From the NCBI GenBank assembly GCA_947503525.1, contig CANNEA010000003.1, forward strand, positions 372,001-436,000: a stretch of DNA of 64,000 nucleotides, in the 5' to 3' direction. Position numbers and translations under genes: made by a program. Position 1 is the first letter of the stretch; each line of letters begins with the position of its first letter. The DNA comes from an uncultured Carboxylicivirga sp. (GTDB lineage Bacteria > Bacteroidota > Bacteroidia > Bacteroidales > Marinilabiliaceae). Under the pieces are notes generated by a model. The model saw only the letters and a program-made list of their open reading frames with translations. It had not been told where the DNA came from and searched no databases. Below are positions 41,640 through 56,749 of the stretch, one piece after another.

Positions 41640-41676
41640 GCTGAACGTAAATGGCAACATATTTAAAAATACAACA

Positions 41677-43164
41677 ATGAAAAAAATAAATATAATAAGC
41701 TTAAGCCTGTCAATCTTGTTATTGCTGGGATCGTGTTCGCAGGATTTATTAGATACGCCTGCGCCAAATATATCTGATCAATCATTTTTCAGTTCTGATG
41801 AGGCTGCATTTGACGCCTTAGTTGGAGCTTATGATCCATTAGCCAGATATAACTACACTCAAATTCATGAGTGGATGATTGGAGACGTTGTTTCCGACGA
41901 CGCTGAAAAAGGTGGAGAAGGTCCAAGTGACTGGGCCGAATGTCAGGATTTAAAGGATTTTAAAGCTAATGCCGAAAACTCAATTTTAGCTGGGCGTTGG
42001 AGTGAACCATATGTTGGAATCAATCGTGCTAATAAGTTAATTGCTGGTATCGAAGGCAATGAAAACATATCTAAGGCAATTCAGGATCGTTATATTGCTG
42101 AGGCAAAATTTTTAAGGGCATGGTATCACTTTCATCTTCTAAAAGTTTTTGGCGGCGTGCCAATTGTGACTTCTGTTTTACAGCCTTCCGAATTTATGTT
42201 GCCTCGTGAGACAGAGGATAAGGTTTATGCCCAAATAGAACAGGATTTAAAAGATGCCTCGGAGTTTTTGCCTACAAAAAATGATTTATTAAGCAGCGAA
42301 ATTGGTCGTGCCACCAAAGGAGCAGCAGAGGCCTTTTTGGTAAAAATGTATGTGTTTCAAGCTAAGTGGTCTGAAGCTGCAGCATTGTCGGATAAGTTTA
42401 TCAAAGATTATACCTGGTATGAGTTAGAAGAAAACTATTCGGATATTTTCACACCACTTGGTGAAAATGGATCGGAATCGATTTTTGAAATTCAATATTC
42501 TTTCATTGATGGAGATGGTAATTGGGGAGATGATAACGAAGGAAATGTAACGGCAATATATCAAGGTAGCCGTCAGTTATACAATGCTAAAGGTGAAATA
42601 GAAAGTGGCTGGGGCTGGGGATTTAACCTGCCTACCCATAATCTATATACAGCTTTTGAAGATGGTGATCCGCGTAGGGATGCAACCATTATAGATGATG
42701 GTGATGTGCTTTGGGCCGGAACTGATGATGAAGAAGTAATCTGTACTCAACATGTAAATAGCATTGGCTATTCCGATAGAGTTTATCATTCCAAGAAATA
42801 CTATATCCCAAGGAGTGAGCGAAATGGCATGTCTGATTCGCCAAATAATTGGAGAGCTATTCGTTTTGCGGACTTATTGTTGTGGAATGCGGAAGCTCAT
42901 GCTCATACGGGTGGAAATTGGCAGTATGGCGTTCAAGAAGTAAGAGCGCGTGTTGGATTGGGAGATTCTCCATATACTGATGGACTAGAAGCTGTTTATC
43001 ATGAGCGAAGAGTTGAATTTGCAATGGAAGGCCATCGCTACTGGGACTTAGTGCGTACGGGCAGAGGTAATTTAATGCAAGGTTATTCAGATAATAAGCG
43101 CTACATGCCTATTCCTCAGGGAGAAATTAGCCTTAATCCTAATTTGGAGCAAAATCCATACTAA
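41677..43164 (+). CDS. SusD/RagB-family nutrient-binding lipoprotein
   Basis: A 495-residue outer-membrane lipoprotein with a lipobox at LLLLGSCSQDLLD. It captures glycan at the cell surface and acts as the lid of SusC. Family features: N-terminal helix pair (ISDQSFFSSDEAAFDALVGAYDPLA), the TPR-like segment FLRAWYHFHLLKVFGGVPIVT, the C-terminal RFADLLLWNAEAHAHTGG ... VYHERRVEFAMEGHRYWDLVRTGRG and the final LNPNLEQNPY. It is paired with susC, as is universal in PULs. Confidence 0.95.
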   Translation: MKKINIISLSLSILLLLGSCSQDLLDTPAPNISDQSFFSSDEAAFDALVGAYDPLARYNYTQIHEWMIGDVVSDDAEKGGEGPSDWAECQDLKDFKANAENSILAGRWSEPYVGINRANKLIAGIEGNENISKAIQDRYIAEAKFLRAWYHFHLLKVFGGVPIVTSVLQPSEFMLPRETEDKVYAQIEQDLKDASEFLPTKNDLLSSEIGRATKGAAEAFLVKMYVFQAKWSEAAALSDKFIKDYTWYELEENYSDIFTPLGENGSESIFEIQYSFIDGDGNWGDDNEGNVTAIYQGSRQLYNAKGEIESGWGWGFNLPTHNLYTAFEDGDPRRDATIIDDGDVLWAGTDDEEVICTQHVNSIGYSDRVYHSKKYYIPRSERNGMSDSPNNWRAIRFADLLLWNAEAHAHTGGNWQYGVQEVRARVGLGDSPYTDGLEAVYHERRVEFAMEGHRYWDLVRTGRGNLMQGYSDNKRYMPIPQGEISLNPNLEQNPY

Positions 43165-43186
43165 TCAAACTGTAAATTTTTGAAAA

Positions 43187-44485
43187 ATGAATAAAATAAG
43201 ATATATCGCTTTAGTTATTCTTGCAGGATTCATATTTGCATGTACGCCTGATGTGGACATGCGAGATATGCCTGCACAATTGCCTGATGTGGCATTTAGT
43301 GTTGATAATACTGATCCTAATCAGCCTGTCTTAACAATTACAGATGAAACTGTTTTTAATGCCAACTGGTACTTTGAAGATGGAACGATGCTTCAGGGTT
43401 CAAGTGTGCAATGTTTTTATCCTTTAAAGGGGGATTATGCATTTACTCTGGTCGCCATGAATGGCAAAGGGCAGTCCGAAGGTGTCGGATCCGTAAATGT
43501 GCCTGAAAGTAATCCGGACATGGTATTTGGTATTCCTGAGTATGTGTCTCTTTGTGGAGAAAAGGAAGATAATGGTAAATACTGGGTATGGGATCAGGAG
43601 GAGCCTGGTGGTAACGTGTCGTACATGACAGCAAGTTATGATTGGCAAGAATTTTGGTGGAATCCATACACAGTGGGAGATGGTACTGCTGAAAATTTAC
43701 CTGACTTATTGAATGAGATTAAGTTTGATTTGGTTGGAGGTTTTAATTTTACACGATTTGAATCTAAGGATAATGAGGCGGAAAAGGGAAGTTTTACTTT
43801 GAATCTGGATGCCATGACATTAAAGATTAATGGGGCCACTATTCCAAATTATGACGATCCAAATATTGATTCTGAGATTGCAGCAACGGGTCAATATAAT
43901 ATTCAGATATTAAGTGATTATGAATTGTTATTGTGGCAAGATCACCCTACAATGGGTTATGCCTGGGCCTGGAAATTTAAAGCTCGTGATTTACTTCCCC
44001 TTGATGATCCAATTTTTAAATTAGCAGGAGAAGAAGGTGAGGGTGGTAAAAGCTGGACCTTTGATCATAGTGGAGCTATGGGCTCATGTTATATGACTGC
44101 TGATTACGATTGGCAAGAGTCGTGGTGGTCGCCATATAGTACTTTAGAATCGATTCCCGAATATGATCACACGATTAAGTTTGATCTGGATTATAATTAT
44201 ACACATTTTGATGGAACAGGCACTGCTCTTGAAAATGGCACTTATGAATATGACCGAAAATCAGGTGAGATAACTTTGTCTGATGGACATATTCCAAATT
44301 ATGAAGCACGTAATTCAGGTGAAGATGGTGATTCGAATTTGGATGCAGATGTTAGTGCAGCAGGTAAGTATATAATTCAAATTGTTGAAGATGATAAGCT
44401 GTTTATGTGGCAAGATCATGGTCCAAATAATGGAGGAGCTAATGATTATGGCTGGGCTTGGATTTTTATGCCGGCAGATAACTAG
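43187..44485 (+). CDS. PUL surface lipoprotein with duplicated C-terminal module (putative glycan-binding protein)
   Basis: A 432-residue lipoprotein (lipobox FIFACTPD) 22 bases after susD, where SusE/SusF-type surface glycan-binding proteins are usually encoded. Residues ~30-110 look PKD/Ig-like (NANWYFEDGTMLQGSSVQCFYPLKGDYAFTLVAMN). After it come two similar ~145-residue modules, each with YMTA-x-YDWQE-x-WW-x-PY, ... IKFDL ... FN/YTHF and ending WQDH-x-GYAWAWKF or WQDHGP ... GWAWIF. The many Trp and Tyr residues suit sugar stacking. I do not recognise the module as a named CBM family; glycan binding is inferred from position and composition. A strong terminator follows. Confidence 0.75.
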   Translation: MNKIRYIALVILAGFIFACTPDVDMRDMPAQLPDVAFSVDNTDPNQPVLTITDETVFNANWYFEDGTMLQGSSVQCFYPLKGDYAFTLVAMNGKGQSEGVGSVNVPESNPDMVFGIPEYVSLCGEKEDNGKYWVWDQEEPGGNVSYMTASYDWQEFWWNPYTVGDGTAENLPDLLNEIKFDLVGGFNFTRFESKDNEAEKGSFTLNLDAMTLKINGATIPNYDDPNIDSEIAATGQYNIQILSDYELLLWQDHPTMGYAWAWKFKARDLLPLDDPIFKLAGEEGEGGKSWTFDHSGAMGSCYMTADYDWQESWWSPYSTLESIPEYDHTIKFDLDYNYTHFDGTGTALENGTYEYDRKSGEITLSDGHIPNYEARNSGEDGDSNLDADVSAAGKYIIQIVEDDKLFMWQDHGPNNGGANDYGWAWIFMPADN

Positions 44486-44514
44486 TCTAAAATTTCGATT
44501 TCTTAAATAAAGTG

Positions 44515-44556
44515 AGAGAGTGCTTGTCAATAGTCCGTTGATAAGCACTCTTTGTT
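44515..44556 (+). terminator. Terminator after the susCD operon
   Basis: AGAGTGCTTGTCAA and TTGATAAGCACTCT pair over 14 bp (one G-U) with a 7-base loop and a T-rich tail. It separates the susC-susD-lipoprotein operon from the LacI gene. Confidence 0.8.
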
Positions 44557-44663
44557 TATGATTGTTTGTTGAAGAAAATGCTATGAGTGAGGTGATTGTT
44601 TATGCAGTAGCTGATAAGAAAAGATTTTTGTTTCTTTGTAAGAGATCAAGCAAATAATAAAGG

Positions 44664-45698
44664 ATGGCCAAAAAAGAAGGTGCTAAAGGCGAAATTACAA
44701 TAAATGATATAGCAAAGGAACTTAATATTGCTACATCAACTGTTTCCAGAGCATTAAATGATAGCAATAAGATAAGTGATGCAACTAAAAAAAAGGTGCA
44801 GGCTGTCGCTCAGGAAATGGGGTATGAGTTAAATTTGGTGGCTTCCAGTCTTTCGAAAAACAAGACTAATATTATCGGTGTAATTGTTCCTTCGATTAAT
44901 AGTCAGTTCTTTTCCAAAGCCCTAAGTGCCATTCAGAAAGAGGCCAAGTTAGCTGGGTATAATGTAATTATTAGCCAAACCAATGAGAGCTTTGAGCAAG
45001 AAGTTGAAGTGCTGAAGGTTATGAATTCGGCTAGGGTAGATGGACTAATAGTTAGTTTAAGTATTGAAACCAAGTCGATAAGTCATTTTAACGCCCTTGT
45101 TAAAAAGAAGGTGCCGATCGCTATGTTTGATCGCGTAAATTATGATGTGCCAGGAGCCAAAGTGGTGGTTGATAATTATGAGGCTTCGTATAAAGCAACG
45201 GAGCATTTGGCTAAAATTGGTTGTAAAAGAATTGCACACCTGGCAGGTCCATTGGGCTGTAAAGTATTTGATGAGCGAGCTGATGGATTTAAGGATGCTT
45301 TGAAAAATAGTAATCTCGACCTGTATCCTCAGTTTTTATTATCCTGTGATTTAAGTGATAAAGATGCCAGAGAAGCTCTGCAAATATGGATGACGCAAAG
45401 TGAAAGGCCTGATGGTATTGTTGTATCAAATGCTTCCGCAGGTTTGGTTCTAACTGGTGCTGTTAAAAGTTACGGGATTTCAATTCCTGATAATTTATCT
45501 ATTATCTCGCTTGGTAATGAACGTTGTAATGAATTAATGGTGCCTTCTCTGTCAGCTATTGATATGCCTGGAGAAGAGATGGGTAAAACGGTCACTAAAA
45601 AACTCCTTAAGCAAATTGATTCCAAAACAATAGATGATTCGATAGTTGTAAAGCCTTTTCGTTTATTAATTAGAAATTCAACATTTAAAAAGGCCTGA
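44664..45698 (+). CDS. LacI/GalR-family transcriptional regulator of the PUL
   Basis: A 344-residue repressor-type regulator. The N-terminal HTH is canonical (ITINDIAKELNIATSTVSRALNDSNKISDATKKKVQAVAQEMGYELN), followed by a periplasmic-binding-protein-like effector domain (IGVIVPSINSQFFSKALSAIQKEA; SNASAGLVLTGAVKSYGISIPDNLSII). About 18 acidic and basic residues precede the HTH, longer than usual. The only LacI-type regulator in the window, it lies between two matching palindromes of the LacI type (38475-38508 and 45837-45856), so autonomous local control of susC and GH2 is likely. The inducer would be a sugar or sugar phosphate from the pathway, perhaps glucosamine-derived (inference). Confidence 0.92.
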   Translation: MAKKEGAKGEITINDIAKELNIATSTVSRALNDSNKISDATKKKVQAVAQEMGYELNLVASSLSKNKTNIIGVIVPSINSQFFSKALSAIQKEAKLAGYNVIISQTNESFEQEVEVLKVMNSARVDGLIVSLSIETKSISHFNALVKKKVPIAMFDRVNYDVPGAKVVVDNYEASYKATEHLAKIGCKRIAHLAGPLGCKVFDERADGFKDALKNSNLDLYPQFLLSCDLSDKDAREALQIWMTQSERPDGIVVSNASAGLVLTGAVKSYGISIPDNLSIISLGNERCNELMVPSLSAIDMPGEEMGKTVTKKLLKQIDSKTIDDSIVVKPFRLLIRNSTFKKA

Positions 45699-45836
45699 TC
45701 AGCTTTCTTCCTTTACTTTTCTTATAGAATATACATTGTGATGTAATAGTAGTGGCTTGGATTAGTAGTCCATCAGCTGTCAGCGTCAATTATTATTCTG
45801 CTATAATTGTTAATGAAAATTAATTATGCAAATATA

Positions 45837-45879
45837 TAATGCAACCGCTTGCATTAATCAAATATTAACTGCATTTTTA
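45837..45879 (+). promoter_or_regulatory. LacI-type operator upstream of the GH2 gene
   Basis: TAATGCAA and TTGCATTA are perfect 8-base arms around CCGC, giving TGCAACCGCTTGCA, one base different from the susC operator core. As at susC, TTGC in the right arm (45849-45852) can act as a -33 box, followed by exactly 19 bases and CATTTTTA (45872-45879), a weak -7 box. This suggests coordinated control of both halves of the PUL. Confidence 0.75.
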
Positions 45880-45919
45880 CATCGTCAATATTAGGATTCA
45901 TATATTAAATATTTATTCG

Positions 45920-48553
45920 ATGCAGCTATTTAATCTAAAACACAATCTCTTTATTCTATTATTATTAACCATCATTTCGTGTAAGCCCATGGAAGATAAA
46001 TTTAAAACGATAAGTTTAAATGAAGGATGGCAAATTCAATCATCTGAAATAGTAACTGAATCAGGGGACATAATAAGTGAAGCGGAATTTGAATCAGGTT
46101 CCTGGATAAGCGGTGATATACCTGCTACGGTTATTTCTATATTAAGACAAAATGGTGAATATGCCGATATGTTTGTTGGTGATAATATTGAAGCCATTGA
46201 TAAGGAGCGGTTTAAAAAAGTATGGTGGTATCGTAAAGATTTTGAGGTTCAAAAGCAGGAAGGATCATTCTATCAATTACGTTTCGAAGGTCTTAATTAC
46301 AAAGCCAATATTTGGGTGAATGGGAAGTTAGTGGCTGGAAGTGATATCATTGAGGGTGCTTTTGGAAGATGGACTTTAGATGTTAGTAACTATGTGCTTA
46401 AAGGTAAAAATGTTGTTGCAGTTGAAGTTTTTCCACCAAAAAGAGGTGATTTGACTATCGGATTTGTGGATTGGAACCCGGCTGCTCCAGACGAAAATAT
46501 GGGATTGTGGAGAGGCGTAAAGTTGATCGAATCTGCAGCGGTTACAATCGAATCTCCAATGGTCTCTTCTAAAATTAGTAAAGACCATAGCAAAGCCACT
46601 ATTGCAATTAATGCATTAGTTACCAATCTGAGTTCTGATAAGCAAGTAGTTAATGTAATTGCTGAAGTTGAGGGGGTTGGTGTGTTGCAAAAGAAGGTGG
46701 AAGTGGAGCCTAAGCAAGAGCTTGACGTCATTTTCTCAGCCGATGAATTTAGTGAGCTCAATGTGAGTAATCCAAAACTGTGGTGGCCAAATAACTTGGG
46801 TGATCCTAACTTATACAATCTTAAATTAAGTGCTCAACTTAATGGTATTGTTTCAGATATTGATAAGTCCAGGTTTGGTATTCGACAAGTGGATGAATAC
46901 TTAACAAAAGATGGACACAAAGGCTATAAAATTAATGGAGAACCGATAATTATTAAAGGTGCTGGTTGGGTTGATGACATGATGTTGGCAGATTCTGATG
47001 AAAAAGTTATTGCTCAGGTCGAATACGTCAAGCACATGAATATGAATTGTATTCGTTTGGAAGGTTTTTGGGGAAAAAACAAAACCTTATACGATGCTGC
47101 TGATGAAAATGGACTTCTTTTAATGATTGGATGGAGTTGTCATTGGGAGTGGGAAGCTTACTGTGGCCGTCCTGAAACACATTTTATGGCCATTACCGGA
47201 AAGGAAGAGATTGAACGACATGCTCAGTCCTATCGCGATCAGGTACTGTATTTAAGAAATCACCCTAGTGTTTTTCTATGGGTTTTTGGTAGCGATAAGT
47301 TGCCGGTAGCTGAATTAGAAGCAAAACTGAATAACTATATAAGTGATGTAGATGGCTCCCGTCCATTGTTGGCCAGTTGTAAGTATCAGGATTTTGGAAC
47401 AGATTTTTATAATACCAGTGAAGTTACGGGTCCAACCGGAGTTAAAATGTTAGGACCTTATTCTTATGTTCCACCAAGATATTGGTATGTTGACAGTATA
47501 GCCGGTGGAGCTTATGGTTTTAATACAGAAACTGGCCCTGGAGCACAAGTGCCGCCATTGGAAAGTATTAAAAAAATGATTCCTGAAGAGAATCTTTGGC
47601 CAATCAATGAAATGTGGAATTATCATTGTGGTCGTCATGAATTTGGATCTTTGGATCGCTATCTAACGGCGTTTAATGCAAGGTATGGTGAAAGTACCTC
47701 TTTGGAGGATTTTACATTCAGAGCACAGGTGGCAAATTATGAAGCATTACGTCCGATGTTTGAGGCTTTTCAGGTAAATAGAAATGAGCAGGCTACAGGA
47801 GTCATTCAATGGATGTTAAATTCGGCATGGCCGGAAATGTTTTGGCAACTATATGATTATTACTTAGTACCTAATGGGGCGTTTTATGCTACAAAAAAAG
47901 CATGTCAGCCGTTAAGTGCTATTTACGATTATGGGGATCACAGTATTTATTTAAGTAATGATCTATTAACACAACAAGAGGGCTTGAGTGTACTTGTTAA
48001 GTTGTTTGACACTAATTCCAAAGAGTTATATACTGAATCGATAGAAGTACTTGCTGAGGCAAATAATACTCTGCAAATATTAGCCTTGCCGGAGCTAAAA
48101 AATTTAAGCGAAACTTACTTTTTATCTCTGCAGATAGAGCAGAATAATAAAATTGTATCAGATAATTTCTATTGGTTATCAAAATCCCTTGATGAAATGG
48201 ATTTTCCGAAAACATCATGGGTGGGCACTCCTCAAAGTGAGTTTGCGAATTTGAAAGGTTTGCAGAATTTGCCGGAAGCCAAGGTAACTTATAAGTGGAT
48301 TGAAGAAAGTAGGGGAGACGATCAGGTATTTCAATGCAAGTTGACTAATAATAGCGAGGTGATTGCCTTTTTTGTAGAAACAGCTGTGTTAAATGCGGCT
48401 ACGCAGGAAACAATAGTTCCGGTGTTTTGGAATGATAATTATATATCACTGTTACCAGGTGAATCAAAAGTTCTTGAGGCTAAAATCAATAAAGAACAGC
48501 TTCAGGCCGCAGGTAAAACCGAATTAAGAGTTAGAGGGATAAATATAAAATAA
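45920..48553 (+). CDS. Glycoside hydrolase family 2, exo-beta-D-glucosaminidase-like lipoprotein
   Basis: An 877-residue exported GH2. The N-terminus carries a lipobox-type signal (LFILLLLTIISCKPME). Domain order: jelly-roll sugar-binding domain (WWYRKDFEV, LRFEGLNYKANIWVNGK), Ig-like domain, TIM barrel (GFWGKNKTLYDAADENGLLLMIGWSCHWEW) and C-terminal Ig-like domains. The usual GH2 acid/base Asn-Glu is replaced by GSD (Asp 459), and the nucleophile Glu 537 lies in FNTETGPG. As I recall, that Asp/Glu pair defines the exo-beta-D-glucosaminidase subfamily (CsxA), rather than beta-mannosidases or beta-galactosidases. It should release glucosamine from the non-reducing ends of chitosan oligomers. 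It has its own LacI operator and starts the second PUL transcript. Confidence 0.85.
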   Translation: MQLFNLKHNLFILLLLTIISCKPMEDKFKTISLNEGWQIQSSEIVTESGDIISEAEFESGSWISGDIPATVISILRQNGEYADMFVGDNIEAIDKERFKKVWWYRKDFEVQKQEGSFYQLRFEGLNYKANIWVNGKLVAGSDIIEGAFGRWTLDVSNYVLKGKNVVAVEVFPPKRGDLTIGFVDWNPAAPDENMGLWRGVKLIESAAVTIESPMVSSKISKDHSKATIAINALVTNLSSDKQVVNVIAEVEGVGVLQKKVEVEPKQELDVIFSADEFSELNVSNPKLWWPNNLGDPNLYNLKLSAQLNGIVSDIDKSRFGIRQVDEYLTKDGHKGYKINGEPIIIKGAGWVDDMMLADSDEKVIAQVEYVKHMNMNCIRLEGFWGKNKTLYDAADENGLLLMIGWSCHWEWEAYCGRPETHFMAITGKEEIERHAQSYRDQVLYLRNHPSVFLWVFGSDKLPVAELEAKLNNYISDVDGSRPLLASCKYQDFGTDFYNTSEVTGPTGVKMLGPYSYVPPRYWYVDSIAGGAYGFNTETGPGAQVPPLESIKKMIPEENLWPINEMWNYHCGRHEFGSLDRYLTAFNARYGESTSLEDFTFRAQVANYEALRPMFEAFQVNRNEQATGVIQWMLNSAWPEMFWQLYDYYLVPNGAFYATKKACQPLSAIYDYGDHSIYLSNDLLTQQEGLSVLVKLFDTNSKELYTESIEVLAEANNTLQILALPELKNLSETYFLSLQIEQNNKIVSDNFYWLSKSLDEMDFPKTSWVGTPQSEFANLKGLQNLPEAKVTYKWIEESRGDDQVFQCKLTNNSEVIAFFVETAVLNAATQETIVPVFWNDNYISLLPGESKVLEAKINKEQLQAAGKTELRVRGINIK

Positions 48554-48597
48554 GAGAAATTAAAGTTTATTATTGAGAGATAAACCTTAAGTGTTGT

Positions 48598-48650
48598 TCA
48601 GAAGACAGAAGCTGTAATGTTATAGCAATATATGGTTTCTGTTCTTCTGA
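48598..48650 (+). other. Stem-loop between GH2 and the first ROK gene
   Basis: TCAGAAGACAGAA and TTCTGTTCTTCTGA form a stem of about 13 bp with one bulge. It is not followed by a T run, so an intercistronic processing or mRNA-stabilising element is more likely than a terminator. Confidence 0.4.
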
Positions 48651-48711
48651 TAAATTCTTTGCATTAGCATCATAATGGCTAAGAGCGTTGTAAAATGGGG
48701 AAATTGTAAGT

Positions 48712-49575
48712 ATGGATAATTTTAAGAATATTATAGGAGTTGATTTAGGAGGTACTAATATGCGGGCTGGACTGGTACAGAACGATAAGATTATAAAAAA
48801 GTCAGCTTGTCGAGTGCCAGTTACTGATAAGTCAGAGGAGGTTACAAATGCCTTAATTGCAACTATTGAGGATGTAATAACGCCGGATGTTGAAGGAATT
48901 GGAGTTGGTGTGCCTAGTCTGGTTAAATCAGGAGAAGGAATTGTTTATGATGTGCAGAATATTCCATCATGGAAAGAGATTCACCTAAAAGAAATATTAG
49001 AGGCTCATTTTAAGTTGCCTGTATATATTAACAACGATGCTAACTGTTTTGCAGTAGGAGAGCGCTTTTTTGGTGAAGGAAAGAAGTTTAGCGATTTTGT
49101 TGGTTTAATCACCGGCACGGGATTAGGTGCAGGTATCATTAAGAAAGGACATCTTTTAAGCGATCAGAATTGCGGGGCAGGAGAATTTGGTATGATACCA
49201 TATTTGGATAATGATTATGAATATTATTGTAGTGGTCAGTTTTTCCAAAACTTTTATAATGCCGATGGTGGAAAAATGGCCAGAAAGGCCATGGATGATG
49301 ATGATTCAGCCTTAGCTGCTTTTAATGCATATGGTAAGCATTTGGGCAAAGCTATAAAAGTTATTTTACTTACAGTTGACCCGGAGGCAATTGTAATAGG
49401 AGGCTCTGTATCAAAGTCATTTGAATTATATAAAGAGGCCATGTGGAACGAGATCTCTACGCATCCTTTTAGTTTTGCCATTGAAAACCTAAAAATTGTA
49501 CCATCCAATGTTGAAGAAATAGCTATTTTAGGTGCGGCAGCATTATATATTGATGCGCAAAGTGAAATAGATTAA
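48712..49575 (+). CDS. ROK-family sugar kinase
   Basis: A 287-residue cytoplasmic kinase of the ROK family. The phosphate-binding motif is intact (IIGVDLGGTNMRAGLV), the catalytic Asp is in INNDANCFAVGE, and the second phosphate/adenosine region is LITGTGLGAGII. The zinc-binding H-x-n-C-x-C-G-x2-G-C cluster of typical ROK kinases is missing; instead GAGEFGMIPYLDNDYEYYCSGQ is seen. Its position after an exo-glucosaminidase suggests glucosamine or another hexosamine as substrate; glucose is also possible. It is followed after 15 bases by a paralogue. Confidence 0.87.
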   Translation: MDNFKNIIGVDLGGTNMRAGLVQNDKIIKKSACRVPVTDKSEEVTNALIATIEDVITPDVEGIGVGVPSLVKSGEGIVYDVQNIPSWKEIHLKEILEAHFKLPVYINNDANCFAVGERFFGEGKKFSDFVGLITGTGLGAGIIKKGHLLSDQNCGAGEFGMIPYLDNDYEYYCSGQFFQNFYNADGGKMARKAMDDDDSALAAFNAYGKHLGKAIKVILLTVDPEAIVIGGSVSKSFELYKEAMWNEISTHPFSFAIENLKIVPSNVEEIAILGAAALYIDAQSEID

Positions 49576-49590
49576 AAAAAGAACGGAATT

Positions 49591-50463
49591 ATGATTCAAG
49601 ATATGACTCTCCAAAATCAATGTGCCATAGGTGTATACCTTGGTGGTAAACTACTTCGTGTCGGTAGAGTTAAAAACAATACGGTGGAGGCGTCACACGA
49701 ACGAGAAATCAATAATCACGATTCTGAGGAAGCTATTTTGCAAGAGGTGATGGATGCTATTGATCAGGTTTTTAATAGCGAAGTTGGCGGTATTGGTATT
49801 GGTGTGCCAAGTTTGGTTGATGTGTCGAAAGGAATTGTTTATAATGTTGAACATATTCCAGCCTGGCGCGAAGTACATTTAGCCGATTTATTAACGGAAC
49901 GTTATAAGGTTAATGTGTTTGTTAATAATGATGCCAACTGTTTTACCATTGGAGAAAAGTATTTTGGAAAGGGACGAAAATATGCAAATCTGGTTGGTGT
50001 AATTGTAGGCGTAGGTTTGGGTTGTGGTGTAATCACTGATAATCGTTTATACTCGGGAACCAACTGTGGTGCGGGTGAATTCGGTTGTATTCCTTATCGC
50101 GATCATAACTATGAATACTACTGCACAAGTAACTACTTTGATGTGAAGTATGGCTTAAAACCTGATGCATTATATGCCCGAGCCAAGAAGAACGATAAAA
50201 TTGCTTTGGCGATTTTAGAGCAATTTGGTTTTGATTTTGGGCAAGCCATTAAAACGATTCTATATACTTACGATCCCGAATGTATTGTGATTGGAGGATC
50301 GATAAGTCGCTTTTTTAAGTTTTTTGAAGAATCGATGTGGAAGATCATCAAGAAATTTCAATACGAAAAGACGGTTGAAAAACTAAAGATTGAAGTGAGT
50401 GATCAAAGTGATATTGCTGTACTTGGTGCGGCAGCTTTGTATTACGATGCTATAAAAAAATAA
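49591..50463 (+). CDS. ROK-family protein with degenerate phosphate-binding motif
   Basis: A 290-residue paralogue of the preceding ROK kinase. Most of the fold is conserved (EVGGIGIGVPSLVDVSKGIVYNVEHIPAWREVHL; VNNDANCFTIGEKYFGKGRKYANLVGVIVGVGLG; GAGEFGCIPYRDHNYEYYC), including the catalytic Asp in NNDANCF. The first motif, however, is IGVYLGGKLLRVG instead of GVDLGGTN-x-R-x-G: the metal/phosphate Asp is Tyr and the Thr is Lys. The zinc cluster is absent, as in its neighbour. It may be a pseudokinase that binds sugar as a sensor or partner of the first kinase, or an enzyme with altered nucleotide binding. The DNA at 49631 (ggtgtataccttggtggtaa) supports the substitution. Confidence 0.8.
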   Translation: MIQDMTLQNQCAIGVYLGGKLLRVGRVKNNTVEASHEREINNHDSEEAILQEVMDAIDQVFNSEVGGIGIGVPSLVDVSKGIVYNVEHIPAWREVHLADLLTERYKVNVFVNNDANCFTIGEKYFGKGRKYANLVGVIVGVGLGCGVITDNRLYSGTNCGAGEFGCIPYRDHNYEYYCTSNYFDVKYGLKPDALYARAKKNDKIALAILEQFGFDFGQAIKTILYTYDPECIVIGGSISRFFKFFEESMWKIIKKFQYEKTVEKLKIEVSDQSDIAVLGAAALYYDAIKK

Positions 50464-50576
50464 ATTGTTGAATATGTAGAAGGATTAGCCATGCTGATTC
50501 GCCAATAACGGGGGTAATTCAACTCTATCGAATAAAATTGAACTGCCTAAATTCGAGTACTTTAAAACTTAGAAAA

Positions 50577-52352
50577 ATGAATAAACTAATTCTATTTTTT
50601 GCTTTGATACTTATGGTTTCCTGTTCATCACAGAAAGAGGATAATTCAACTGTTTTGATAAATCATTTGGGTTATCATAGCAATGCCATAAAAAAGCTTG
50701 TATTTCAAACGACTAGTCAATCAAAGCCTACAAAATTTGAAGTGCTTGACTTGAATGGAGATGTTGTTTTTGGAGGTCAATTTATGGAAGGAGATGGCCA
50801 GGTAGATAATTGGCATAAGGGAAAAGCTTTCGAGGGGGATTTTACTCAGCTAGACAAAGCCGGCCAATACCTGGTGAGAGTACAATTAAAAAACAAGAAG
50901 TTTGAATCCTCCATCTTCGAGATAAGGTCGACAGCACTTGCTCCGGAGTTGTTACCTCTCTTGTTGGACGGTTTTAAATCACAGCGTTGTAAAGATCCAT
51001 ATAACTCAAAGGATAAGAAAATGAGTTTTTATGGCGATCGAAATGACACAGTTGATGTTAGTGGTGGATGGTATGATGCTTCAGGGGAGAAGGGTAAATA
51101 TCTAAGTCATCTGAATTTTTCAAACTATATGTGTCCTCAGCAGTTGCCAATGATGGTTTGGAATTTATTGGAAACAGCTTCTTATGTGCAAGGGAATTTG
51201 GGAAGTGAAATTGAAGAGGAAGCCGCATTTGGTGCAGACTATTTGGTGAGAGTACAGGATCAAATAGGCTATTTTTACACAACTGTATTTGCCAATTGGA
51301 CAAAGGATCCAGAACAACGTCAAATTGCTGCATATGAAGGTCAGGATGGAAGGAAAAATGCCAATTATCAGGCCGCATTCAGAGAAGGAGGAGGCATGGC
51401 CATAGCAGCATTGGCTCGTATGTCACAATTAAATATTCATGGTGTGTTCGATAGCGGAAAATACCTTGATGCTGCTATTAAGGGCTTTGAACATCTATTG
51501 GAGAATAATCTGAAATATACGAATGACGGTAAAGAGAACATCATTGATGATTATTGCGCATTACTGGCTGCTAAAGAGCTATATAAGGCAACTAATGATA
51601 AAAACTATCTGGATCATGCAAGAATAAGATCAAGAAATTTAGTGAATCGACTAATGGTAGATGATCAAATGGCCAATTGGCTTCGTGCTGACGATGAAGG
51701 TAATCGACCATATTTTCATGGGGCGGAGGCGGGACTCCCAATTATTGCATTATGCCAATACGTTCAAATCGAATCGGACGAAAAAAGATTTCAAGAGGCA
51801 ATCGCTCTTATTAGTCAATTGGTAGATTTTGAGGTTACAATTACCAAGCAAGTTTATAATCCATATGGATATGCTCGCCAGTATGTAAAAGCCATTGATG
51901 AATCTTCACCTCGTTCATCCTTTTTTATTCCTCATCAAAACGAAACCGGGTATTGGTGGCAAGGTGAAAATGCCAGAATAGCGTCTTTGGCAACAGCTTT
52001 GTTAATGGCCAGAGACATTTTAAAGGTTGAAAAGAGCATTCAAATTGATGAATATGCAAATAATCAAATAAACTGGATATTAGGTCTTAACCCTTATGAC
52101 ATGTGCATGTTGGAAGGGGCAGGACATAACAATCCAATTTATAAAGAAGGAGGAGTATCTTATAATTATTTAGGTGGGGTGTGCAATGGAATTACAGGAG
52201 GTTTTACAGATGAAACTGACATTGCTTTTATGCCTGAACCACAAAAAGATGATCCTGCGCAACGTTGGCGTTGGTCGGAACAATGGTTACAGCACGGAGG
52301 ATGGTTAATGCCTGCCTTGGCTCTGCAAGCTGCAACTAATGATATACCATAA
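50577..52352 (+). CDS. Glycoside hydrolase family 9 lipoprotein (endoglucanase/exo-glucosaminidase type)
   Basis: A 591-residue GH9 with a lipobox signal (MNKLILFFALILMVSCSSQ). Residues ~25-115 are the CelD-type Ig-like N-domain (VLINHLGYHSNAIKKLVFQT); the rest is the (alpha/alpha)6 barrel. In place of the endoglucanase motif DAGD it has GGWYDASGEKGKY, where Asp 167 fits the first Asp but the second is not at its usual place; the acid Glu 568 lies in RWRWSEQWLQHGGW. The change fits a GH9 group acting on amino-sugars, such as the exo-beta-D-glucosaminidases; cellulose-type substrates are not excluded. The frame is open from a TTG at 50538, but the ATG at 50577 gives a proper lipoprotein signal. 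Confidence 0.85.
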   Translation: MNKLILFFALILMVSCSSQKEDNSTVLINHLGYHSNAIKKLVFQTTSQSKPTKFEVLDLNGDVVFGGQFMEGDGQVDNWHKGKAFEGDFTQLDKAGQYLVRVQLKNKKFESSIFEIRSTALAPELLPLLLDGFKSQRCKDPYNSKDKKMSFYGDRNDTVDVSGGWYDASGEKGKYLSHLNFSNYMCPQQLPMMVWNLLETASYVQGNLGSEIEEEAAFGADYLVRVQDQIGYFYTTVFANWTKDPEQRQIAAYEGQDGRKNANYQAAFREGGGMAIAALARMSQLNIHGVFDSGKYLDAAIKGFEHLLENNLKYTNDGKENIIDDYCALLAAKELYKATNDKNYLDHARIRSRNLVNRLMVDDQMANWLRADDEGNRPYFHGAEAGLPIIALCQYVQIESDEKRFQEAIALISQLVDFEVTITKQVYNPYGYARQYVKAIDESSPRSSFFIPHQNETGYWWQGENARIASLATALLMARDILKVEKSIQIDEYANNQINWILGLNPYDMCMLEGAGHNNPIYKEGGVSYNYLGGVCNGITGGFTDETDIAFMPEPQKDDPAQRWRWSEQWLQHGGWLMPALALQAATNDIP

Positions 52353-52363
52353 ATCCTGGCTAT

Positions 52364-52410
52364 AAAATGAATTAAGGACTTCATCTCTAGATTGATCCTT
52401 AATTCATTTT
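52364..52410 (+). terminator. Perfect 15-bp hairpin between GH9 and GH8
   Basis: AAAATGAATTAAGGA and TCCTTAATTCATTTT pair without mismatch around a 17-base loop. The tail is only TTTT, partly in the stem, and the stem is AT-rich, so it may act as a weak terminator or attenuator lowering expression of GH8 and the following lipoprotein gene. Confidence 0.5.
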
Positions 52411-52455
52411 GTCATAGTTAGCTTAGTTACAGTAATCGAATCAAAAACCTAAATC

Positions 52456-53718
52456 ATGAAAAAACTTTTAACCATAATATTCACCAGCTCTTTATTTACA
52501 TTGAGTTGTAACGGTGGTGGACCGGATAATCTAAAACCGATCGTAGAAGAACCAGTTATTACTGATCCGATTAGGCCATTTCCTCAAAATAAAAATTTCA
52601 CCTTATGTATTAAACCTAATCATCAATCACAGGATCAATTAAATAATGATGTGATTGATTATTATAAATACTGGAAGTTGAAATATGTGAAAGCTTCAAA
52701 TGGTGTAACACCTGGTGGGGGATATTATTTGGCCATGAAAGGAACAGGAGGTGATGGTAATGAAATTACAACTTCTGAAGCACATGGCTATGGTATGATT
52801 GTTTTTGCTCTAATGGCCGGATATGATAAAGATGCCAAACAATTCTTTGATGGCTTCTTTAATATGTTTGATAAGCATCGCAGCACAACTAATCCTCATT
52901 TAATGTCTTGGGTAATTCATAAGACTGAGAAAGTAAGTTACGATCAGGGAAGTGCTACTGATGGTGATTTGGATATTGCCTATGCCTTACTACTGGCAGA
53001 TAAGCAATGGGGAAGTGATGGTAAAATCAATTATTTGTCGCATGCTAAAGAAATGATTAATAAAGGTATTAAGCTTGATGAGATGTCAAGCCAAACTAAG
53101 CGTGTTTTATTGGGTGACTGGGATACTAACCAATATTCTACCCGTTCGTCGGATTGGATGGCAGGACATTTTAGGGCTTTTAATAAAGCAACGAATGATA
53201 AATTTTGGCTTGATGCTATAGATGTTGTTTATGAATTAATAGAATCTATAACAGCTAATTATAGCTCAACAACCGGTTTAATGCCGGACTTTATTGTTGG
53301 ATCAACTCCTAAGCCTGCTCCGGAATATTATTTAAATGAGTTTAAAGAAACGGATGAATATAATTGGAATGCCTGCCGCTATCCTTGGCGTATCACAAGT
53401 GATTTTGCACATAATAATAATCAGGAAGCTCGAAAAGCCATGCTTAAACTTCTGGATTTTATCGTAGAGAAATCCAATGGGGACCCAAAGAAGATAAAGG
53501 CAGGGTATTATTTAAATGGAGATCCTTTAAATTCTTATTCCGATGCAGCATTTACTGCACCTTTAGTTACAGCAGCTATTGTGGATACGAAATATCAGGA
53601 TTTTCTGAATAAAGGTTGGGATGAAATAGTTCAAATGAGAAGCAGCTATTTCGGAGATACCATCGGAATGCTGAATTTACTTATGATTTCAGGTAATTGG
53701 TGGAATCCTTCAGAATAG
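52456..53718 (+). CDS. Glycoside hydrolase family 8 lipoprotein (chitosanase- or endoglucanase-type)
   Basis: A 420-residue GH8 exported as a lipoprotein (lipobox LFTLSCNGGG). The (alpha/alpha)6-barrel signatures are present: the proton donor Glu 108 in TTSEAHGYGMIVFALMAG, MSWVIHK, SATDGDLDIAYALLLADKQWG with Asp 169/171/173, and RSSDWMAGHFRAFNKAT. GH8 includes chitosanases, cellulases, licheninases and xylanases. The neighbouring exo-glucosaminidase-type GH2, GH9 and ROK genes favour an endo-acting chitosanase, which would cut the polymer outside the cell before import (inference from context). Confidence 0.83.
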   Translation: MKKLLTIIFTSSLFTLSCNGGGPDNLKPIVEEPVITDPIRPFPQNKNFTLCIKPNHQSQDQLNNDVIDYYKYWKLKYVKASNGVTPGGGYYLAMKGTGGDGNEITTSEAHGYGMIVFALMAGYDKDAKQFFDGFFNMFDKHRSTTNPHLMSWVIHKTEKVSYDQGSATDGDLDIAYALLLADKQWGSDGKINYLSHAKEMINKGIKLDEMSSQTKRVLLGDWDTNQYSTRSSDWMAGHFRAFNKATNDKFWLDAIDVVYELIESITANYSSTTGLMPDFIVGSTPKPAPEYYLNEFKETDEYNWNACRYPWRITSDFAHNNNQEARKAMLKLLDFIVEKSNGDPKKIKAGYYLNGDPLNSYSDAAFTAPLVTAAIVDTKYQDFLNKGWDEIVQMRSSYFGDTIGMLNLLMISGNWWNPSE

Positions 53719-54118: not shown

Positions 54119-54149
54119 TTTGCAATCTAAATATATATGTCTACATTCG
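54119..54149 (+). promoter_or_regulatory. Promoter of the tandem-attenuator operon
   Basis: TTTG at 54119-54122, a 19-base spacer and TACATTCG at 54142-54149 (near TAnnTTTG) form a good -33/-7 pair. Transcription would begin near 54155, about 14 bases before the first leader peptide. Confidence 0.6.
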
Positions 54150-54168
54150 TTGTATAATTATAAAAGAA

Positions 54169-54219
54169 ATGAAGACCAGTATTATCATTATTAGTACCAT
54201 TATAATTAACATCTGTTGA
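54169..54219 (+). CDS. Leader peptide 1 (Ile/Thr-rich, attenuation)
   Basis: A 16-residue frame, MKTSIIIISTIIINIC, with eight Ile and two Thr codons, ending in TGA 40 bases before a terminator hairpin. A ribosome stalling on Ile codons when charged tRNA-Ile is low would free the antiterminator (CGGGAA at 54227-54232 against TTCCCG at 54265-54270). The codon run and its placement are hallmarks of amino-acid attenuation. The start codon is preceded by AAAAGAA, a plausible A-rich leader. Confidence 0.75.
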   Translation: MKTSIIIISTIIINIC

Positions 54220-54226
54220 TGTTAAG

Positions 54227-54290
54227 CGGGAACTAATTGGATATTTTTAAATAATCACAAAGCCTTCCCGGATTCAGGGAAGGCTTTTTA
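54227..54290 (+). terminator. Attenuator 1: antiterminator and terminator
   Basis: The terminator is AAGCCTTCCC (54260-54269) pairing with GGGAAGGCTT (54277-54286), followed by T. The competing antiterminator pairs CGGGAA (54227-54232) with TTCCCG (54265-54270), so both cannot form together. Upstream, AACATC (54208-54213) and GATGTT (54218-54223) make a further helix spanning the leader stop codon that can act as the 1:2 pairing of a classical attenuator. Confidence 0.75.
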
Positions 54291-54301
54291 GTTATATACA
54301 T

Positions 54302-54361
54302 ATGAACTTAGTACATACCATTATTATTACCATCACTATTATTATTCCATTATTGGAATGA
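54302..54361 (+). CDS. Leader peptide 2 (Ile/Thr-rich, attenuation)
   Basis: A 19-residue frame, MNLVHTIIITITIIIPLLE, with seven Ile, three Thr and also Leu and Val codons. It begins only 12 bases after the first terminator, so it lies on the same transcript. Its TGA stop (54359-54361) overlaps the antiterminator strand ATGAGA, which directly couples translation to the choice of hairpin. The amino acid content fits control by branched-chain amino acids or threonine. Confidence 0.75.
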   Translation: MNLVHTIIITITIIIPLLE

Positions 54362-54418
54362 GATTGGTAATGTATGCAATAAACTAAAGCCTTTCTCATC
54401 AATGAGAAAGGCTTTTTT
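54358..54418 (+). terminator. Attenuator 2: antiterminator and terminator
   Basis: Terminator AAAGCCTTTCTCAT (54386-54399) pairs with ATGAGAAAGGCTTT (54402-54415), followed by a T run. The antiterminator pairs ATGAGA (54358-54363) with TCTCAT (54394-54399). A further helix, CATTA (54348-54352) with TAATG (54368-54372), can compete with it. It ends 36 bases before the ACT gene. Confidence 0.78.
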
Positions 54419-54454
54419 TATATCTGAACAATAACACCATAAATAATAAACCAA

Positions 54455-54697
54455 ATGGAAAATAATTTTAGTATCGACGTGCTGGCAGAAGATAGCCTGG
54501 GATTGGCTGCCAAATTATTAATGTTTTTCGAGCGTAAACAAATAAATGTAAAACTGATGACTCTTGAGGATCTGCCTGAAAATAAGAGTTGTTCATTCAA
54601 TTTTTTGGTAGAATCAACAGATCTTGAGGTTGAACGGACAAGCCTTTTTATTTCAAAGCAAGTAGGTGTTATGGATGTTGGCTTTTACGCAGTATAA
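54455..54697 (+). CDS. Orphan ACT-domain protein (IlvN/IlvM-like regulatory subunit)
   Basis: An 80-residue protein that is almost exactly one ACT domain: FSIDVLAEDSLGLAAKLLMF, then FERKQINVKLMTLEDLPE and a final beta strand ending VMDVGFYAV. The layout and the G-L-A-x-K-L / R-K-x-I-N-V segments resemble the small subunit of acetohydroxyacid synthase (IlvN, IlvM), but the C-terminal half of the Bacteroidota IlvN is absent and no large subunit is near. Preceded by two leader-peptide attenuators and followed by a convergent gene, it seems to be the only protein under that control. It may regulate AHAS or another amino-acid enzyme in trans. This function is inferred. Confidence 0.7.
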   Translation: MENNFSIDVLAEDSLGLAAKLLMFFERKQINVKLMTLEDLPENKSCSFNFLVESTDLEVERTSLFISKQVGVMDVGFYAV

Positions 54698-54703
54698 TTA
54701 GCA

Positions 54704-56749
54704 CTATTTATCAGGCAATACTTGCGCTTCAACTAATCTGGTTTTTAAACGCTCATGGTTTACCCAAAATTTAGTTTCGATTTTATCCATGAGTTGTTTA
54801 AATGCCGGATCATCCTTAATATTATCCATAATAGGATCATTAGGAATAAAAAGTGGAATCCAGTATTGATAGTTATCTTCCTTTGAAAACAATTCAAGGT
54901 GGTATAGCGCTTTTTCTTTATTACCTATATAAGAATAATAGGAAGATAAATTCAGATGTTGATAGATGGATTCATCATTATCAGCAAATCGTTTGTATTG
55001 ATCCAATAATTGTTTTGATTTTTCGGAATTACCCATCTTATCATAAACCAGAGCGATTTCGGCGTATTTGTGTATATATATATCCAGCTGATATAAATCT
55101 TTGATGTACAGAAATTTTTTGAAGTATTGATATGAAGTTTCCCAATCACGCAGATAGTAGCAGGTATTTCCAAGCTCCTGAATAATATCAAGTCTGGTTG
55201 TATCTCTTGATAAAGCTTCAAGAAGAAGAGTTTTAGTCTGATCAAGATTTCTGTCTCTGGCATACAGAATATAGGCTTTTACATATTCCGAAAACAAGTT
55301 TTCAGGATTATACGCTAAGGATTGATCTATTGCTGTAATAGCCTCGTTTGTAAAGCCAGTTTGGATAAGGGCATTGCTTAAATGTAAATAGATATAGCTG
55401 GCGGTACTCGAATCGTTAGAAGCAATATCCAAGCTAATTCCTTTTAATGCATATTCCAGATATTTCTCCGTGTCGGGGATATGATTGGTATATAATTCGG
55501 ATAGAGTATTTATAACCAAAGCAGAGTTAGGATTGTATTCCAGAGCTTTTTCAAGGTAGATAATTGCTTGTTCATAATCGTATTCATTGATGAACTGCAT
55601 GGCTTTAGCCGTCATTCCCTGAGCCAGTTTTGGCTGATATAATAAGGACATATCAGCATAATAGGTAACGGAATCGGCATACTGCTTGTCTTCCTGGAAG
55701 ATATCTAAGAAATGGTAAGCAAGAGCTAAAGCAGCATGTGCACGTGCAAAATCTTCATCTTCATCAATGGCTTTATGAAGAAAGGCTATCCCTGTGCGCA
55801 GACTTTCAATATTACCATAATTGAATAGGTCTAAACCTTTCAGAAAATAATCATAGGCCAACATGTTATCCGTAGGAATCTCATTCAAACGTTGCTTTTC
55901 TTCCGGAGTAATAATAATATGAATGCGTTCAGCAATTTTTTCAGCAACCTCGCTTTGAATCTGAAAAACATCACTTAATTCTCTATTGTATTGTTGTGCC
56001 CATAAATGATCGTCGTTATTCGCCATGATAAGCTGAACACTTAAGCGGATAGATTCACCCACTTTCTGGCCACTACCTTCAAGTATATAACTCACGCCTA
56101 ATTCATTGGCAATTTCAGGAATGGTTTTATTCGAATTGCGATACTTTTCAACCGAAGTGCGACTAACCACCTTCAGATCTTCTAGTTGTTGTAAGTTGTT
56201 CAGAATAGATTCCATCAGGCCATTGACGAAATATACATTGCTTGAATCAGCACTATCGTTTATAAATGGTAATACAGCAATTGAATGATCAATGTTTTCA
56301 AGTGCTTTGGCCTTTTGATTTAAATAAATTGTGGATGTTATAGTCACAAGAATTAAGACAAGGGCGACTGCGCCTGTTATCCATTTCCATTTATTAGAAC
56401 TACTTTCTATTAGGACATCCTTATTTTCAGACTGTTTATTGGCTTCACCCGGGGGATAACCATATTGTTCACGAAAGCATTTTGTAAAATACGATGTGCT
56501 GCTGAATCCAACTTCATAGGAAATCTCAGAAATGGTTTTATCTCCTTGGATTAACATTCCCAATGCTTCTTCTAATCTTACTTGTCTGATAAATTGACTA
56601 ACGGAAAGTTGACTGTGTTTTTGAACTTTTCGAAGTAAATTAGAGCGACTCATACCGACTTCATTGGCCAATTCCGAAACACCAAATTGATCGTTGGATA
56701 TATTCTGAAGAATTATCTTTTTAAGTTCAAGTAAAAACTCGTTTTCCAT
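54704..56749 (-). CDS. Membrane-anchored AraC-type regulator with TPR repeats
   Basis: A 681-residue protein in which the AraC/XylS HTH is at the N-terminus (residues ~5-105; SNLLRKVQKHSQLSVSQFIRQVRLEEALGML and TISEISYEVGFSSTSYFTKCFREQYGYPPGEAN), opposite to the usual C-terminal place. Then come a membrane segment near 118-138 (WITGAVALVLILVTITSTIYL), a CadC/FlgO-like domain (IAVLPFINDSADSSNVYFVNGLMESILNNL ... DHLWAQQYNREL), and about ten TPR-like helices to the end. This looks like a one-component sensor with a cytoplasmic DNA-binding part and a periplasmic sensing part. Its targets are not known; it lies 6 bases from the ACT gene's stop, tail to tail. Confidence 0.87.
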   Translation of the reverse strand: MENEFLLELKKIILQNISNDQFGVSELANEVGMSRSNLLRKVQKHSQLSVSQFIRQVRLEEALGMLIQGDKTISEISYEVGFSSTSYFTKCFREQYGYPPGEANKQSENKDVLIESSSNKWKWITGAVALVLILVTITSTIYLNQKAKALENIDHSIAVLPFINDSADSSNVYFVNGLMESILNNLQQLEDLKVVSRTSVEKYRNSNKTIPEIANELGVSYILEGSGQKVGESIRLSVQLIMANNDDHLWAQQYNRELSDVFQIQSEVAEKIAERIHIIITPEEKQRLNEIPTDNMLAYDYFLKGLDLFNYGNIESLRTGIAFLHKAIDEDEDFARAHAALALAYHFLDIFQEDKQYADSVTYYADMSLLYQPKLAQGMTAKAMQFINEYDYEQAIIYLEKALEYNPNSALVINTLSELYTNHIPDTEKYLEYALKGISLDIASNDSSTASYIYLHLSNALIQTGFTNEAITAIDQSLAYNPENLFSEYVKAYILYARDRNLDQTKTLLLEALSRDTTRLDIIQELGNTCYYLRDWETSYQYFKKFLYIKDLYQLDIYIHKYAEIALVYDKMGNSEKSKQLLDQYKRFADNDESIYQHLNLSSYYSYIGNKEKALYHLELFSKEDNYQYWIPLFIPNDPIMDNIKDDPAFKQLMDKIETKFWVNHERLKTRLVEAQVLPDK

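Follow-up and report, generated by a model that had tools for sequence, protein, structure and literature searches.

Two isoleucine-codon leaders with predicted attenuator structures precede a lone ACT-domain gene in Carboxylicivirga

Introduction

Amino acid biosynthesis operons that are regulated through a leader peptide usually carry one such leader, and ribosome-mediated attenuators of this type precede ilvGMEDA and thrABC in Escherichia coli and ilvBNC in Corynebacterium glutamicum. The locus reported here resembles these ilv and thr attenuators in combining a leader rich in the regulated amino acid with an antiterminator and a terminator, but differs in that two such units lie in series, their codons are dominated by isoleucine, and a lone ACT-domain gene stands in place of the enzyme genes.

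Precedents for multiple attenuators were found in two systems. Streptococcal msrD is preceded by two erythromycin-sensing leader peptides, one before mefA and the other between mefA and msrD, which form a ‘double-lock’ against basal expression (PMC10314930). The present locus would likewise have two attenuators for the same signal acting successively on a gene, but the mefA/msrD system relies on stalling of the drug-bound ribosome and has a gene between its leaders, whereas here stalling would result from a scarce tRNA, and the adjacent leaders both precede a single gene. Of the two systems, mefA/msrD nevertheless comes closest to the lowering of leak proposed below. In Salmonella, the tandem attenuators mgtM and mgtP of mgtCBR answer to ATP and proline, respectively, with additive effect (PMC3641672); this system shares with ours two short ORFs and alternative structures within one leader region upstream of one transcription unit, but responds to two different signals, whereas Ile codons are found in both of the leaders described here.

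A further report refers to two ErmB leader peptides (PMC10336011). Naville and Gautheret stated in 2010 that, to their knowledge and before their own Bacillus case, leader-peptide systems had been shown only in Proteobacteria and Actinobacteria, ermC apart (PMC2965389, in part), and short ORFs reminiscent of attenuating leaders have been described in Bacteroides thetaiotaomicron (PMC7366714, in part). Searches of an open-access library yielded no description of neighbouring leaders that both sense one amino acid, and the arrangement is therefore classed here as a variant of ribosome-mediated attenuation.

Organization of the locus

The locus lies within a 64,000-nt stretch of an uncultured Carboxylicivirga sp. 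genome (G000), hereafter the window, and all of its features are on the forward strand. A scan located a candidate Bacteroidota-type promoter at 54119–54149, consisting of TTTG (54119–54122), a 19-nt spacer and the box TACATTCG (54142–54149). Leader peptide 1, MKTSIIIISTIIINIC (54169–54219), has 16 residues including 8 Ile and 2 Thr, and is followed by terminator 1, AAAGCCTTCCC / GGGAAGGCTTT and a T-run (54259–54291), with an 11-bp stem at 54259–54287. Leader peptide 2, MNLVHTIIITITIIIPLLE (54302–54361), has 19 residues including 7 Ile and 3 Thr, and precedes terminator 2, AAAGCCTTTCTCA / TGAGAAAGGCTTT and a T-run (54386–54419), with a 13-bp stem at 54386–54415. The gene itself (54455–54697) encodes P0001, an 80-aa protein with a single ACT domain related to the N-terminal domain of IlvN. 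The first-pass annotation had described two leaders with these Ile and Thr counts, two terminators and an 80-codon gene, all of which were confirmed from the sequence.

The same order was found in a sister species of the same genus (G008): a promoter-like box, the leader MKNIVSIIISIIIDIS (16 residues, 8 Ile), a terminator with the same stem as terminator 1, the leader MKTTLNIIISIIIIIPNTG (19 residues, 8 Ile), a terminator with a stem like that of terminator 2, and the gene. The layout was thus retained in a relative, inclusive of the Ile-rich frames and the antiterminator and terminator strands.

Relative to TAnnTTTG, the consensus of the Bacteroidota promoter box, TACATTCG has one mismatch, with TTTG 19 nt upstream, and at the equivalent site the sister species matches the consensus perfectly (TACGTTTG), a TTG lying 20 nt before it. 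Strict matches to the consensus box number eight in the window, and two further one-mismatch boxes with TTG at 19–20 nt lie just upstream of the candidate (54092, 54132). In view of these other matches, the promoter, which the first-pass annotation had read outright, is a weak call on its own. A one-mismatch −7-like box is also present 3′ of terminator 2 in each genome (54419; +248 in G008), neither of which has a TTG at 17–23 nt.

The ACT gene is flanked by a DUF4884 gene and by a gene encoding a protein with an N-terminal AraC-type HTH and TPR repeats, the latter (54704–56749) being convergent with it. The earlier statement that no biosynthetic gene adjoins the ACT gene agrees with the 10 window proteins that were scanned. 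Further upstream, the segment at 38565–53718 resembles a polysaccharide-utilization region, with a TonB-dependent receptor, a ROK-family protein, a GH9 protein with a CelD_N domain and a GH8 protein, and the window also contains an open frame of 2987 aa at 3405–12368.

Isoleucine codons of the two leaders

Both strands of the window were scanned for ATG frames of 10–36 codons with at least 7 Ile codons and at least 35% Ile, and then for a terminator by a set criterion. Five ATG starts satisfied the Ile-rich criterion, and a terminator follows just the two leaders described above. In 60 dinucleotide shuffles of the 64 kb, the mean number of Ile-rich starts was 0.12, and the number with a terminator was 0. 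The leaders, whose translation is predicted, thus carry 8 and 7 Ile codons here and 8 and 8 at equal lengths in the sister species, and an intrinsic terminator follows each of them before the gene in both genomes.

When the leaders of the two genomes were aligned, 6 Ile positions in leader 1 and 7 in leader 2 were held in common, while many of the non-Ile residues differed. In leader 2, Thr is encoded at positions 6, 10 and 12, where the sister species has Asn, Ser and Ile, so Ile appears to be the signal that was kept in place. Conservation of Thr at particular leader positions was accordingly rejected, as the three Thr codons of leader 2 in the sister species stand elsewhere (3, 4 and 18) and no Thr codon occurs in leader 1 of that species. 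The ‘AND gate’ of two signals that had been suggested for the pair is hence not supported, both being Ile leaders with Thr positions that were not kept; two such leaders would rather be expected to multiply and steepen the response to a single signal.

An Ile-codon pattern, allowing 2 mismatches, gave 9 matches in the genome (two of them these leaders) versus 9 for a reversed control, and no leader was discernible by eye at the other seven. Membership of an Rfam family was rejected, since all 10 matches fell under the gathering score; the two units scored 29.0 and 28.7 bits against Thr_leader (RF00506), for which the gathering score is 55.

Predicted folding of the two units

Four units (two attenuators in each of two genomes) were folded with a simple ribosome footprint. 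With the leader complete, all four were predicted to form a protector, in which the sequence that follows the stop codon is base-paired to the Ile codons, together with the terminator. In unit 1, the protector includes a hairpin where the leader ends, UUAACAUC/GAUGUUAA (54206–54225), which is re-formed in the sister species through two double-sided pair changes, and the 16-base strand GGGAACTAATTGGATA (54228–54243), which does not differ between the genomes and has two alternative partners, the leader-1 codons or, via GGGAA, the terminator's 5′ arm. Protector 2 (54326–54371) likewise joins leader-2 codons to a downstream strand (AUUACCAUC : GAUUGGUAAU) around an inner hairpin, UUAUUCCA/UGGAAUGA, and the corresponding antiterminator strand, ATGAGA (54358–54363), pairs in the stall models with TCTCAT of terminator 2.

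With a ribosome modelled over the late Ile codons, the truncated transcript folded into the antiterminator in 4/4 units, by way of GGGAA:UUCCC in unit 1 and AUGAGA:UCUCAU in unit 2, whereas with the ribosome over the stop codon the terminator formed in 4/4. An antiterminator that excludes the terminator and is released by stalling was thereby computed for every unit, and the competing antiterminator claimed earlier for each terminator was borne out, in that an upstream strand can pair with the 5′ arm in both. The untranslated state of unit 1 is ambiguous, because in both genomes the transcript truncated before the 3′ arm is predicted to contain the antiterminator helix, next to the inner hairpin, even when no ribosome is present.

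Compared by position between the genomes, the 20 pairs of protector 1 comprise 12 unchanged, 2 one-sided, 2 double-sided and 4 broken, and the 22 pairs of protector 2 comprise 9 unchanged, 3 one-sided, 4 double-sided and 6 broken. The sister species attains the same fold topology through shifted pairs, and as the carriers are only two genomes, the covariation is thin.

The ACT-domain protein

Comparison of P0001 with curated models gave 15.2 bits for ACT (cut-off 27) and 14.5 bits for NF008864 (cut-off 119), and PF22629 was not reported for P0001 or P0002, so that neither of the two curated models of the acetohydroxyacid synthase (AHAS) small subunit recognizes the protein. A match of P0002 to the Pfam family Epsilon_antitox (15 of 25 bits) was taken as chance. 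Among sequence relatives, AHAS small subunits nonetheless come closest, although the IlvN of the same genome was not reached at E 0.01. The claimed likeness to the AHAS regulatory subunit holds to the extent that the ACT domain is IlvN-like, though the curated cut-offs were missed.

A two-row profile (A1) was used to search wider sets of genomes, at thresholds of E <= 0.01 for the family, E <= 1e-4 for the order and E <= 1e-5 for the phylum. Among the 71 family genomes, besides the two carriers, 49 have one match in a frame of 180–233 aa, two extra matches fall in long frames and 20 genomes have no match; within the genus, 9/9 IlvN-sized matches lie directly after ilvB. No second match was obtained at E <= 0.01 in either carrier, hence the IlvN proteins of these two genomes themselves were not reached. 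P0001 is 18% identical to the IlvN domain of its own genome in alignment, with a BLAST match of 39 residues, and 18–30% identical to IlvN-type rows.

Against the PDB, P0001 alone yielded a single match, a glycine-cleavage repressor, at E 1.1. An AlphaFold model built with an IlvN-rich alignment has a beta-alpha-beta-beta-alpha-beta fold (pLDDT 93.5), whilst a model from the two orphan proteins alone was partly formed (pLDDT 60.4, residues 57–80 below 50). The first solved structure matched by Foldseek with the IlvN-rich model was that of E. coli IlvN with valine (5ypp); NikR, RelA-type and MgtC domains also scored closely. Residues were compared at the sites of N11, G14 and N29 of E. coli IlvH. 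At the N11 site the orphans have D and E, compared with N in 36/40 IlvN rows, and at the N29 site they have N (P0001) and C, compared with N in 39/40, whereas the IlvN of the same genome has N, G and N at the three sites. These substitutions do not suffice to show that valine binding is lost, because both orphans keep the G14 glycine and P0001 keeps the N at the N29 site.

The single-ACT subunits of E. coli, IlvN of AHAS I and IlvM of AHAS II, are encoded beside the catalytic subunit. P0001 is like them in its predicted single ACT domain, similar length and top fold match, but unlike them in that its gene stands alone and its identity to IlvN-type rows is low. By sequence, P0001 is best described as a divergent single ACT domain with IlvN kinship by profile, and is not assigned as an AHAS small subunit, nor is its gene adjacent to ilvB.

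Branched-chain and threonine genes elsewhere in the genome

The protein had been thought to be without a partner, which proved wrong at the scale of the genome, as ilvB and ilvN were found elsewhere. The ilv-leu cluster runs in the order ilvD-ilvB-ilvN-ilvC-leuA and continues with other leu-type genes, a 508-aa synthase and genes of the leuB and ilvA types; ilvB was named by family model and the remainder from inspection of the sequences. The search recommended by the first-pass annotation thus recovered genes of all the types sought (ilvB/ilvN, ilvA and thr), with the ilvD cluster carrying a leader of its own. This leader, MKFNLSLVLDIIIILVVIIT, is single, has Ile, Leu and Val codons, and is accompanied by an antiterminator and a terminator. 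Leaders of this type (MKFNLSL[VI]LDIIIILVVIIT) followed by a terminator were present in 14/14 genus genomes (L019:8520-8700; L080-L093), four of which were folded (G000, G008, G007 and G012). One cell is therefore predicted from its sequence to hold both an ordinary Ile/Leu/Val attenuator on the enzyme genes and a doubled Ile attenuator on a spare ACT gene. Exactly one IlvB above the cut-off was identified in each of the 14 genus genomes, and a second catalytic AHAS was rejected, the second matches scoring 37–77 bits versus 538.

In 4/4 genomes inspected (G000, G008, G012 and G019), thrA, which encodes an 806-aa protein containing a homoserine-dehydrogenase domain, is preceded by a short frame that includes codons for Thr and Ile (L111:960-1105, G000:C3; also L112, L116 and L117). 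The frame ends with CCCCTTGGGG and lies between GACC on its upstream side and TATCATCAGGTC on its downstream side; in the window genome it reads MMIYNLTNTISTTITPWGL, as recognized by eye. Nothing in the L111 region reached the Rfam gathering score, and no evident U-run terminator was seen before thrA.

Occurrence and history of the ACT gene

The ACT gene was found in two of the 71 family genomes, the present one and its sister species, and not in the other 69. A search of these genomes with P0001 returned the two copies along with one match each in 11 other genomes, all in frames of 184–233 aa that resemble IlvN N-termini when translated. The leader-1 motif with one mismatch was matched in 8/71 family genomes, and in the six beyond the carriers no such leader was apparent by eye within 400 bases. 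Profile A1 matched, besides the window genome, 57 genomes among 393 of the order and 36 among 395 of the phylum. None of the order matches lies in a frame under 123 aa except that of the window genome, and the three shortest (G215, G248 and G284) sit between ilvB- and ilvC-like frames. In the phylum, 99-aa frames with a match were confined to G667 and G720, from another family of the same class, where both adjoin ilvB-like genes; the 93-aa single-ACT proteins there (L113:2722-3003 and L114:1769-2050) exceed the cut-off of PF22629 and are encoded between ilvB- and ilvC-like genes. A wider search gave no match among plasmids and, among genome contigs, one match of 36 residues at 42% in a Mycoplasmatota record.

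A tree built on 1700 bases of ilvD, covering 14 genomes of the genus, placed the two carriers as sisters (support 0.975), for which one gain followed by retention would be the simplest history. Their orphan proteins are 61–62% identical, and the genes differ at 25, 15 and 46 sites in codon positions 1, 2 and 3 over 77 codons, an excess at third positions such as purifying selection is expected to produce; dS is saturated, and therefore no ratio could be obtained. The immediate flanks in the sister species are different, namely a sigma-factor-like and a thioredoxin-like gene (named from inspection of the sequences). Relatives of the AraC-HTH/TPR regulator and of two further neighbours nonetheless lie on the same contig about 22–26 kb away (that of the regulator itself about 24–26 kb from the ACT gene), and the wider region may consequently be shared but rearranged.

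Proposed mechanism and alternative explanations

The locus very probably comprises two ribosome-mediated transcription attenuators in series, both tuned to isoleucyl-tRNA and controlling one gene. When Ile is sufficient, the ribosome would reach the leader stop codon with the antiterminator strand covered or held within the protector, and RNA polymerase would halt at terminator 1 or, failing that, at terminator 2. When Ile is short, the ribosome would stall on the Ile codons and cover the leader, freeing the GGGAA or AUGAGA strand for pairing with the terminator's 5′ arm, and transcription would continue. Since read-through would be needed twice, leak should be multiplied down and the response steepened; leader translation and stalling, termination and this multiplied response are all inferred. 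That the product is a putative trans-acting protein made at low Ile-tRNA charging, as first proposed, is a fair inference.

Taken as a whole, the reading we prefer, with a probability of about 0.6, is that duplicated Ile attenuation produces an IlvM-like accessory subunit at Ile starvation. One ACT-like subdomain is present in the small subunits of both AHAS I and AHAS II (PMC5727371, in part), and AHAS II (ilvGM) of E. coli is valine-resistant (PMC8406616, in part); by analogy, a spare single-ACT subunit could reduce the valine inhibition of AHAS. The product, an IlvN-like single ACT domain, would in IlvM-like fashion join or compete at the single IlvB and render AHAS less sensitive to valine, such that Ile synthesis would still be possible when valine would otherwise shut the enzyme down. 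The identification of AHAS as the putative partner is tentative, falling somewhat short of even odds. A starvation-induced subunit swap in the full sense, with the spare ACT subunit replacing IlvN on AHAS and lifting valine feedback, is more doubtful.

A real pair of attenuators could also serve an ACT protein that is a free amino-acid sensor or acts on another enzyme, such as IlvA or bifunctional ThrA, a reading we consider credible but less likely than not. The missed AHAS small-subunit cut-offs, the distance of the gene from ilvB, the similar scores of several ACT-like folds and the existence of ilvA- and thrA-type genes in the genome (ilvA from inspection of the sequence) all point that way, against which the profile finds an IlvN-sized frame in 49/49 of the other matched family genomes, the two extra matches in long frames aside. 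It is unlikely that the locus is a decaying fragment, in which the leader and the start of ilvN were duplicated from an ilv operon and are in the course of being lost: the gene is short, divergent and rare (2/71 family genomes), and terminator 2 is like the terminator of the ilvD leader, but the frame is open in two species, third positions account for 46/86 differences, and the double layout was retained despite differing immediate flanks. Least probable is that the locus functions through its short terminated RNAs or its leader peptides, with the ACT gene being of secondary importance. Two terminated leaders would yield two small transcripts, and a trans role is known for the leader peptide peTrpL (PMC7298713, in part); many non-Ile leader residues differ, however, and both genomes keep the same downstream gene.

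Should the preferred reading of an IlvM-like accessory subunit extend to a subunit swap, attenuation would set the allostery of an enzyme and not its amount, and serial attenuators for the same signal would hold leak near zero. An adjacent pair of leaders for the same amino acid would itself constitute a natural test of what attenuation in series gains, namely lower leak and a steeper response, and its position before a lone IlvN-like ACT gene would suggest that allostery may be tunable by attenuation.
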